Positions 62,010-64,000 of a stretch of DNA of 64,000 bases are shown here, piece after piece. Location: NCBI RefSeq assembly GCF_030505195.1, contig NZ_CP129672.1, forward strand, positions 4,746,501 to 4,810,500. The letters are read 5' to 3'. This DNA comes from Comamonas testosteroni. GTDB taxonomy: Bacteria; Pseudomonadota; Gammaproteobacteria; Burkholderiales; Burkholderiaceae_C. The notes beneath the pieces are model-generated. The model worked only from the letters and a program-made list of their open reading frames with translations, made no database searches and had not been told where the DNA came from. The translations under genes and the position numbers were made by a program. The number at the start of each line of letters is the position of its first letter. Position 1 is the stretch's first letter.

Positions 62010-63341
62010 ATGCCCCAATCCCTGACTCAGCAACTGAGCCGTGAACAGCAAATCGCAGCCCTCGAAAAAGACTGGGCACAGAACCCACGCTGGAAGAGCG
62101 TAAAGCGCGGTTACAGCGCTGCCGATGTGGTGCGTCTGCGTGGCAGCCTGCAGCCTGAGTACACGCTGGCCCAGCGCGGCGCCGAAGTGCTGTGGGACAA
62201 GATTAACGGCAGCTCGAAGAAGGGCTATGTGAACGCCTTCGGCGCCATCTCTGCAGGCCAGGCCATGCAGCAGGCCAAGGCCGGCCTGGAAGCCGTGTAC
62301 CTGTCGGGCTGGCAAGTAGCCGCCGACGGCAACACCTCCGAGACCATGTACCCCGATCAGTCGCTGTACGCCTATGACTCCGTGCCCACCATGGTGCGTC
62401 GCATCAACAACACCTTCAAGCGCGCCGATGAAATCCAATGGGGCAAGGGCATCAACCCCGGCGACAAGGAGTTCATCGACTACTTCCTGCCCATCGTGGC
62501 TGATGCGGAAGCCGGCTTTGGCGGCGTGCTCAACGCGTTCGAGCTGATGAAGAACATGATTCAGGCAGGTGCTGCCGGCGTGCACTTTGAAGACCAGTTG
62601 GCCGCCGTCAAGAAGTGCGGCCACATGGGCGGCAAGGTGCTGGTGCCCACCCGCGAAGCGGTCGAGAAGCTGATCGCCGCCCGTTTTGCAGCTGACGTGA
62701 TGGGCGTGCCCACCATTGTGCTGGCCCGTACCGATGCCGAAGCGGCCAACCTGATCACCAGCAACCATGACGAGAACGACATCCCGTTCCTGACTGGCGA
62801 GCGTACTCAGGAGGGCTTCTACCGTGTCAAGAACGGTCTGGAGCAATCCATCAGCCGCGGCGTGGCCTACGCTCCCTATGCGGATCTGGTGTGGTGCGAA
62901 ACCGGTGTGCCCGATATCGGCTTTGCCCGCGAATTTGCCCAGGCCGTGCACGCAGCCTGCCCAGGCAAGCTGCTGAGCTACAACTGCTCGCCTTCGTTCA
63001 ACTGGAAGAAGAATCTCAACGACAGCCAGATCGCTTCCTTCCAGGAAGACCTGTCCGCACTGGGTTACAAGTTCCAGTTCATCACGCTGGCCGGCATTCA
63101 CAGCAACTGGTACAACACCTTCAAGTTCGCCCACGAGTACGCTCGCGGCGAAGGCATGAAGCACTACGTGGAAATGATCCAGGAGCCCGAATTCGCGGCT
63201 CGTGACAAGGGCTACACCTTTGTCTCGCACCAGCAGGAAGTGGGCGCAGGTTACTTCGACGACGTGACCACCGTGATCCAGGGCGGCTCCTCCAGCGTCA
63301 AGGCGCTGACCGGCTCCACCGAGGAAGAGCAGTTCCATTGA
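62010..63341 (+). CDS. aceA: Isocitrate lyase
   Basis: 443 residues, with TAAGGAG upstream of ATG 62010. The signature [18 protein letters not shown] contains the catalytic Cys, and [24 protein letters not shown] and [37 protein letters not shown] form the isocitrate site. The length fits the short bacterial class. It splits isocitrate to succinate and glyoxylate in the glyoxylate shunt, needed for growth on acetate or fatty acids. No malate synthase gene is next to it. It has its own terminator. Confidence 0.96.
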
Positions 63342-63385
63342 GCCACGATGAATCGTGATTCTGTCTAGGTAAAAAAAGGGGTTAT

Positions 63386-63417
63386 GCGCCCGGGGCGAAA
63401 GTCTCGGGCGCTTTTTT
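63386..63417 (+). terminator. Rho-independent terminator after aceA
   Basis: The stem GCGCCCG/CGGGCGC (63386-63392 and 63405-63411) has a 12-base loop and is followed by six T. Confidence 0.88.
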
Positions 63418-63477
63418 GTTTGCCGGGTTAAAATGCCGCGACTTCAATTCACAAGGGCGAGAAAGGCATCAACGGTT

Positions 63478-63519
63478 ATGACACCGCGAACTACATCGGA
63501 GATGTACTTCAGCTGCTGA
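63478..63519 (+). CDS. Putative threonine-rich thrS leader peptide
   Basis: Thirteen codons from ATG 63478 encode [13 protein letters not shown], stopping at TGA 63517. Threonine codons are at positions 2, 5 and 6. AAGG lies upstream at a rather long distance (63463-63466), so initiation may be weak. The peptide has no expected function of its own; its translation would sense charged tRNA-Thr and set the attenuator. Confidence 0.5.
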
Positions 63520-63567
63520 TGGCAGCTGGCGGTTCGCGCCTGCCCGAGATTTCTCGACCCCTCATCA

Positions 63568-63593
63568 AAGCGCGGACTGGTTCCGCGCTTTTT
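63568..63593 (+). terminator. Attenuator terminator upstream of thrS
   Basis: AAGCGCGGA, loop CTGGT and TCCGCGCTT form a perfect 9-bp stem followed by TTT. It lies within the thrS leader, 70 bp upstream of the thrS start, with no gene end before it except the short leader peptide. Confidence 0.75.
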
Positions 63594-63662
63594 GCTTTCA
63601 GGCAACTCCAAAGCTCTGGCGCTGGCCCTCACCCACACAAATTTGGTTTGACAAGGAATTTC

Positions 63663-64000
63663 ATGATCAACATCACGCTCCCCGATGGCTCCAAGCGCGA
63701 ATATCCGGGCCCGGTTTCGGTCGCTGAGGTCGCTGCTTCGATCGGCTCCGGCCTGGCCAAGGCGGCACTTGCCGGCAAGATCAACGGCAAGGTCGTGGAC
63801 ACCAGCTTTGTGATCGAGCAGGATTCGCCGCTGTCCATCATCACCGCCAAGGATGCCGATGGTCTGGAGGTGATCCGCCACTCCACCGCTCACTTGCTGG
63901 CCTATGCCGTCAAGGAGCTGTTTCCCGATGCCCAGGTCACCATCGGCCCTGTGATCGAAAACGGTTTCTACTACGACTTCTCGTACAAGCGTCCCTTCAC
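63663..64000 (+). CDS. thrS: Threonyl-tRNA synthetase, 3'-truncated by window edge
   Basis: About 112 residues are visible from ATG 63663, preceded by AAGGA. The N-terminal TGS domain is [45 protein letters not shown] (residues 2-46). The editing-domain start follows with [39 protein letters not shown], where HSTAHLL supplies the first metal-like His cluster of the editing site. It charges tRNA with threonine. The catalytic core lies beyond the window; infC and rplT usually follow in Proteobacteria. Confidence 0.95.

Follow-up and report, generated by a model that had tools for sequence, protein, structure and literature searches.

It was concluded that transcription of thrS, the threonyl-tRNA synthetase (ThrRS) gene, is very probably controlled in Comamonas testosteroni by a ribosome-mediated attenuator that reads the charging of tRNA-Thr. 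This conclusion was drawn from sequence and modeled folds, and the anatomy found before thrS means that the cell probably makes more ThrRS when threonyl-tRNA is short. Such an attenuator had been proposed in an earlier note on this DNA, and the proposal was supported by Thr-rich leaders, by the terminator and by coevolution across lineages. The leader anatomy described there was recovered by inspection of the sequence and an ORF check, including a leader of 13 codons with Thr codons at 63481, 63490 and 63493 and the pairings of 63485-63491 with 63532-63538 and of 63531-63539 with 63570-63578. The terminator, placed by the note at 63568-63590, was found and its extent refined to 63567-63591 plus a U tract. 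Features beyond that note were a hairpin spanning the leader stop codon, a frozen core at 63474-63491 and a long-range helix involving the leader Shine-Dalgarno (SD) sequence.

The window, i.e. the whole stretch of 64,000 nucleotides that was analyzed, covered positions 4746501-4810500 of a 6.08 Mb genome. The order along the locus was TAAAAT, leader SD, leader ORF, terminator and thrS, and the features were as follows.

62010-63341, isocitrate lyase gene (NCBIfam NF011645), the 5' neighbor of the thrS leader
63386-63411, the isocitrate lyase gene's own terminator, from terminator detection
63429-63434, plus strand, TAAAAT, predicted as the -10 element for the leader, from sequence and conservation in relatives
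63455-63468, plus strand, segment 0, the leader SD stretch GGGCGAGAAAGGCA, pairing with the late spacer according to folds and swap tests
63459-63466, plus strand, leader SD GAGAAAGG, within segment 0
63474-63491, plus strand, frozen core GGTTATGACACCGCGAAC of 18 nt around the leader start, from conservation in upstream regions
63478-63519, plus strand, leader peptide of 13 codons (ATG 63478-63480, stop TGA 63517-63519), from the ORF check and Thr-rich relatives
63485-63491, plus strand, segment 1, CGCGAAC, pairing with 63532-63538, from the fold and relatives
63509-63529, plus strand, hairpin spanning the leader stop codon (arms 63509-63517 and 63521-63529), from folds and relatives
63530-63539, plus strand, segment 2, the antiterminator 5' strand, with GTTCGCG at 63532-63538, from the fold and coevolution
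63541-63560, plus strand, late spacer pairing with the SD stretch (63541-63544, 63550-63556 and 63558-63560), from folds and swap tests
63567-63591, plus strand, intrinsic terminator (segments 3 and 4), then TTGCTTT, from the detector and relatives
63663-64000, plus strand, start of thrS (NCBIfam TIGR00418), which continues beyond the window

The full-length thrS gene (locus L348, same genome) matched the TIGR00418 profile with an E-value of 2.1e-218, and the first 112 residues of ThrRS were 100% identical in the closest named relative in genome_contigs, a Comamonas MAG. Downstream of thrS in the genome lie infC, rpmI, rplT and pheS (NCBIfam), followed by ORFs which resemble pheT and ihfA, as judged from sequence and position only. 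Since infC, rpmI and rplT come after thrS, the switch may also act on initiation factor IF3 and two ribosomal proteins. A hairpin with a U-rich tail was observed between rplT and pheS (L348:3900-3942); it is possibly a separate pheST terminator, and no Phe-rich leader was noticed by eye ahead of it. On the 5' side, a tRNA gene adjoined the thrS leader in several relatives (e.g. L303, L307, L311 and L326) and in several of the best 80 genome_contigs loci, and its anticodon was read by eye as GAC (Val).

Upstream regions were taken from the best 80 of 576 confirmed genome_contigs relatives and from sampled genomes of the family (160), the order (90) and the class (114). Within the family, 155 genomes had thrS, and the upstream DNA of 150 was examined, one genome (G114) twice, giving 151 regions; outside it, upstream DNA was covered for 68 of 86 in the order sample and 48 of 102 in the class sample, mostly the better matches. 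The 31 minus-strand loci were left out of the core analysis of 226 regions and of the analyses built on the same set, and were included again in the final carrier count. Carriers were defined by a core with ≤3 mismatches in 18. By the final count, 123 of the 151 family regions, in which one genome appears twice, had GGTTATGACACCGCGAAC before thrS, 111 of them without a mismatch. Beyond the family it was present in 9 of 68 regions from the order and in 0 of 48 from the wider class, and 43 of the best 80 genome_contigs regions had it. A terminator was detected in 111 of the 123 family carriers and at least three Thr codons in 114. A whole-genome search for the core at ≤2 mismatches gave matches in 128 of 160 genomes, against 22 of 160 for the reversed pattern.

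The core was missing in 28 of the 151 family regions, 13 of which kept a strong hairpin with a U tract ≤140 nt before thrS. By eye, only a promoter, a hairpin and the gene were seen at L022 and L071, the leader core being absent. At L059, from a Polaromonas MAG, the core was recognizable, its start codon had become ATA and the short frame was Thr-poor, so that this locus looks like a decayed leader with the terminator kept. Conservation of the Thr codons, a check suggested by the earlier note, was borne out by leaders that are Thr-rich throughout the family and in some scattered order members. Thr-rich leaders beyond the family included MFKRTTTTRISR, MSFRTTTTGTLNQG and MQLNRTTTTS, as well as MDTTTAQR and MSTTTAQR in Luteimonas and another class member; Thr leaders of other lineages lacked the full core and kept the Thr run and the terminator. 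When short ORFs were scored for triplets, Thr was the commonest residue in the order sample, narrowly (9 of 68 vs. 7 for Arg), and not in the class sample (2 of 48 vs. 4 each for Val and Arg).

The predicted leader peptide combined an excess of the regulating codon with a predicted ribosome-binding site. Its three Thr codons (ACA at 63481, ACT at 63490 and ACA at 63493) lie at the low end, as the mean was 4.1 Thr per leader among 150 core-carrying leaders with a median length of 13 codons. From codon 6 on, Thr made up 24.5% of 1333 codons in these leaders vs. 1.4% and 3.6% in the other two frames, and it followed MTPRT at codon 6 in 71% and at codon 7 in 51% of them. The leader SD was conserved for the most part across relatives, reaching an identity of 0.95. 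The leader stop TGA was seen to overlap an ATG at 63519 that is in frame with thrS, 48 codons upstream of the usual start. Translation of thrS from this ATG was considered and rejected: the frame is open in the window, but the ATG is missing from L082 of the same genus.

Of 145 relatives, 101 had a TANAAT motif 30-75 nt upstream of the leader ATG, vs. 1 of 145 in a control stretch. A promoter scan ahead of the leader found no sigma-70 consensus pair. Transcription would start at about 63441. Judged from sequence, the frequency of the -10-like element upstream of the leader in relatives would make a start downstream of 63519 unlikely.

In 133 of 150 relatives the leader was followed by a detected terminator, and 1 of 750 shuffles had one of equal quality. 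The terminator began 56-115 nt after the leader ATG and ended a median of 33 nt before thrS in those 133; the remaining 17 included L024, L025 and L040, which visibly have one. Of the 12 terminators detected in the window, only that of the thrS leader had an ATG ORF with at least three Thr codons 45-125 nt upstream.

The RNA of 63440-63600, whose folding the earlier note had called for, folded better than its dinucleotide shuffles, of which 1 of 200 was as good (z -3.4), and 63442-63581, which ends before the 3' arm of the terminator, was no better than shuffles (z -1.2, 21 of 200). The antiterminator formed between 63531-63539 and 63570-63578, and between 63530-63539 and 63570-63579 when segment 1 was omitted from the fold. 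Counted from the first base of the stop codon, its 5' strand began a median of 3 nt downstream in 133 sequences, and its strength against shuffles was modest (median z -1.2; 37 of 133 below -2); the energy of the 1:2 pairing in the 133 sequences was ordinary (median z -0.2).

Covariation, for which the note had proposed to test all three helices, was found in part. In 41 Comamonadaceae-type leaders picked via the segment 2 pattern, the terminator was paired in 100% of cells, with compensatory changes on both sides in 3 of 9 pairs. Helix 1:2 hardly varied (96.2% of cells paired, 6 of 7 pairs invariant). The antiterminator was paired in 92.1% of cells, its U-A pair next to the end being unformed in 20 of the 41, and within this set it showed no two-sided change and no covariation above shuffles (367 of 500 as high); between lineages it did coevolve. 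One U to C change in segment 2 broke 1:2 in 11 sequences and 2:3 never. In the stop-codon hairpin, 70.7% of cells were paired and 4 of 5 tested pairs had two-sided changes.

Between lineages, segment 2 and the terminator changed together: CUAGUCG with CGGCUAG in Massilia (L008), UCGAGG with CCUCGA in Burkholderia (L033), CUGAGCC with GGCUCAG in Aquitalea (L067) and CUGAGUCG with CGACUUAG in L279. The energy of segment 2 with its own terminator arm was compared with that obtained with the arms of other sequences, with reversed sequences as controls. For 26 diverse leaders picked by hand (18 of 26 listed diverse rows and 8 family rows), the own arms had an advantage of 2.25 kcal/mol that none of 20000 permutations matched (z -5.3, vs. 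-2.1 and -1.6 for the reversed controls), and without L001, L018, L024 and L044 the remaining 22 gave z -4.4 (reversed -0.2). The test was repeated with 31 leaders, i.e. 24 of the 26 listed rows (L313 and L326 had no detected terminator) and 7 family members, and gave z -5.0 (reversed -2.1). Removal of L001, L018 and L044 left 28 leaders with z -4.1 (reversed -0.4), and the 24 listed diverse leaders alone gave z -4.1 (reversed -0.5). For 112 family sequences the swap gave z -4.9, but this test was confounded and dropped as evidence because the reversed controls were nearly as good (-4.1 and -3.5). Segment 1 against segment 2 gave no signal (+0.6) and, for the variable part, a value of the wrong sign (+2.3).

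The switch was modeled in 130 sequences by folding the RNA up to the terminator loop and recording how far the terminator 5' arm paired with the RNA upstream of it. The mean pairing was 0.47 with no ribosome; stalling of a ribosome at the Thr codons gave 0.80, and a ribosome placed at the stop codon 0.68. The shuffled control gave 0.62, 0.68 and 0.57 for these states. Upon stalling, pairing rose by more than 0.2 in 82 of 130 sequences and fell in 3 (23 up and 9 down in the control); in the thrS leader of this window it was 0.08, 1.0 and 1.0 for the three states. In this model stalling favors the antiterminator. Computed folds and cross-lineage coevolution agreed on an antiterminator that excludes the terminator and has its 5' strand freed by stalling. 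From the stalled state to the stop codon, 34 sequences went down by more than 0.2 and 6 up, which was not beyond the shuffled control (34 and 10), and covering of segment 2 by a ribosome at the stop codon was not supported in the folds, either here (1.0) or in the 130 sequences. We regard such covering as a variable rather than a defining feature of attenuators, one that ribosome release can replace. Termination in times of plenty probably needs this release, since a ribosome at the stop leaves segment 2 free here.

We propose the following sequence of events. RNA polymerase would start near 63441, and a ribosome would enter the leader at 63478. When charged tRNA-Thr is short, the ribosome would stall at the Thr codons and cover segment 1, segment 2 would pair with segment 3, the terminator would be blocked and thrS transcribed. 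When charged tRNA-Thr is plentiful, the peptide would be finished and the ribosome would depart; helix 1:2 and the stop-codon hairpin would then close, and the terminator would end transcription. With no ribosome, pairing between the SD stretch and the late spacer would keep the fold that permits the terminator, and the leader would be translated only while the transcript is young.

The long-range helix was examined by swapping the SD stretch (-38 to -6 of the leader ATG) against the late spacer, which lies after segment 2 and before the terminator. Own combinations were better than swapped ones in 122 sequences (z -4.8, 0 of 10000; reversed +0.5) and in 65 mutually dissimilar sequences (z -3.4, 8 of 20000; reversed 0.0). 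The late spacer version, in which segment 2 (the spacer's first 14 nt) is omitted, was chosen after weaker versions that gave z -3.0 and z -2.4. Against the whole spacer the SD stretch gave -2.8, and two other upstream stretches -0.4 and -0.9. Compared with dinucleotide-shuffled spacers, the SD energy was slightly unusual (mean z -0.63), with 17 of 125 sequences below -2 and 12 of 125 for a control segment. As judged from these folds, the helix would hide the leader SD. It excludes the antiterminator loop or must thread through it, and it could serve as a once-only lock.

The core itself was conserved beyond what the leader peptide accounts for. In the 226 distinct regions, the best mismatch counts split into two groups, 150 at 0-3 (131 of them exact) and 73 mostly at 6-9, with 3 at 4-5. 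In the 150 carriers the leader ATG lay 101-278 nt upstream of thrS, and each position from -4 to +13 of the ATG was 95-100% identical, vs. 0.33-0.55 at -8 to -5 and 0.34-0.58 from +20 on (the SD again 0.95); these identities arise partly by selection, because carriers were chosen at ≤3 mismatches, which leaves the split into two groups unaffected. Leader codons 2-4 were ACA, CCG and CGA in 55, 57 and 56 of 58 genomes, compared with a mean of 0.65 for use of the commonest codon at conserved thrS residues. ACA (12.2% of Thr) and CGA (6.7% of Arg) are minor codons in 28 ORFs of the window. The core was thus frozen even at synonymous sites, and also in the GGTT ahead of the ATG. Its 3' half is explained in part by the pairing of CGCGAAC with segment 2, and the pairings examined gave no explanation for the 5' half. 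A GGU/ACC hairpin over the start codon was considered as the cause and showed no covariation: the rare variants L024, L041 and L205 break it, and L111 keeps it by a G-U pair. T-box antiterminators have the consensus UGGN-ACCGCG. The core was seen to resemble it, with a 6-nt insert, and this look is probably a coincidence since the Rfam T-box model found no match.

Chance was rejected as the origin of the arrangement by the fold (z -3.4), the terminator shuffles, the in-frame Thr excess and the single match among the 12 window terminators. A core frozen at synonymous positions and in the GGTT before the ATG, more than the peptide needs, might instead point to a ThrRS binding site at the leader start, where the enzyme would regulate its own gene by acting on the leader and the Thr codons would be secondary; the E. 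coli enzyme binds its own leader, as a passage of PMC2965389 mentions. We find this explanation unlikely: the Thr codons 3' of the core are enriched independently (24.5%), in other lineages Thr leaders without the full core still have the Thr run and a terminator, and the start-codon hairpin brought no covariation gain. The nearly invariant MTPRT with its minor codons ACA and CGA would also suit a sensor of peptide arrest or translation efficiency, in which the ribosome pauses at MTPRT in response to another signal and the terminator reads the pause. Against this, Thr often comes after MTPRT (codon 6 in 71%, codon 7 in 51%), the gene concerned is thrS, and Thr runs persist in relatives that lack MTPRT, which leaves such a sensor very improbable.

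It is harder still to believe that nothing is regulated and that a leftover short ORF stands beside a terminator which trims upstream read-through. A terminator-like hairpin is indeed kept ≤140 nt before thrS in 13 of 28 core-less family regions, but the upstream gene already ends in its own terminator, and the frequent -10 element, the leader, the spacing and the coevolving alternative helices speak for regulation. A tRNA-binding T-box leader is barely conceivable; thrS is a usual T-box gene in Gram-positive bacteria, yet the Rfam T-box gave no match at E≤1 in 62500-64000 or in the upstream regions of 20 relatives. The ribosome-mediated attenuator thus remained the preferred reading. An extended form of it with two gates, in which the frozen core would be read by a ligand (e.g. 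ThrRS) or by the initiating ribosome and the SD helix would close the leader early, allowing one Thr-tRNA test per transcript, is tentative and rather doubtful.

Annotation with Rfam would miss the leader, because no family reached the gathering score over 62500-64000 or in the upstream regions of 20 relatives. Sub-threshold matches were RF02837 over the upstream terminator and, in relatives, mostly matches near tRNA genes. In the accessible parts, thrS was not mentioned in the main text of PMC2965389 or in PMC1262725, and the word count for thrS was zero in PMC2864571 and PMC4603805. Attenuators of leuS and trpS were predicted in Streptomyces in the accessible part of PMC1262725; they too are leader peptides of synthetase genes found by genome comparison, for other amino acids and in another phylum. 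The kind of attenuator is well known, and its gene, its spread, the frozen core and the SD helix may be new here. Work by Vitreschak in 2004 and Lopatovskaya in 2010 reportedly covered attenuators in proteobacteria and those of synthetase genes, and may already list the thrS element.

The ribosome-mediated attenuators of enterobacteria include trpL, hisL, thrL and pheM, which serve amino-acid operons and pheST. The thrS leader resembles them in its short codon-rich frame, its 1:2, 2:3 and 3:4 pairing and its U-tailed terminator before the first gene. Unlike in those systems, the gene is that of threonyl-tRNA synthetase, an 18-nt core is frozen across a family, and in this species a ribosome at the stop codon does not extend to segment 2. 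The E. coli thrABC leader (Rfam RF00506) shares the Thr codons, while gene and sequence differ and no Rfam match was found here. In E. coli trpL there is a distal pairing over the ribosome-binding site, so that downstream RNA hides a leader SD there too; here the helix is supported by coevolution and folds only.

At thrS itself, the E. coli gene is repressed in translation by ThrRS, which binds hairpins before the thrS SD. The same gene is here preceded instead by a leader ORF and a terminator ending a median of 33 nt before thrS. The Gram-positive thrS T-box (RF00230) shares both the gene and the read-out, tRNA-Thr charging; there, however, the tRNA binds the RNA directly, and a T-box match is absent here. 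Both the frozen core and the SD helix pose concrete questions that can be tested. If the attenuator is real, it would be a third way to sense a shortage of tRNA-Thr at thrS, spread in a large Burkholderiales family, beside the E. coli synthetase that binds its own mRNA and the T-box of Gram-positive bacteria.
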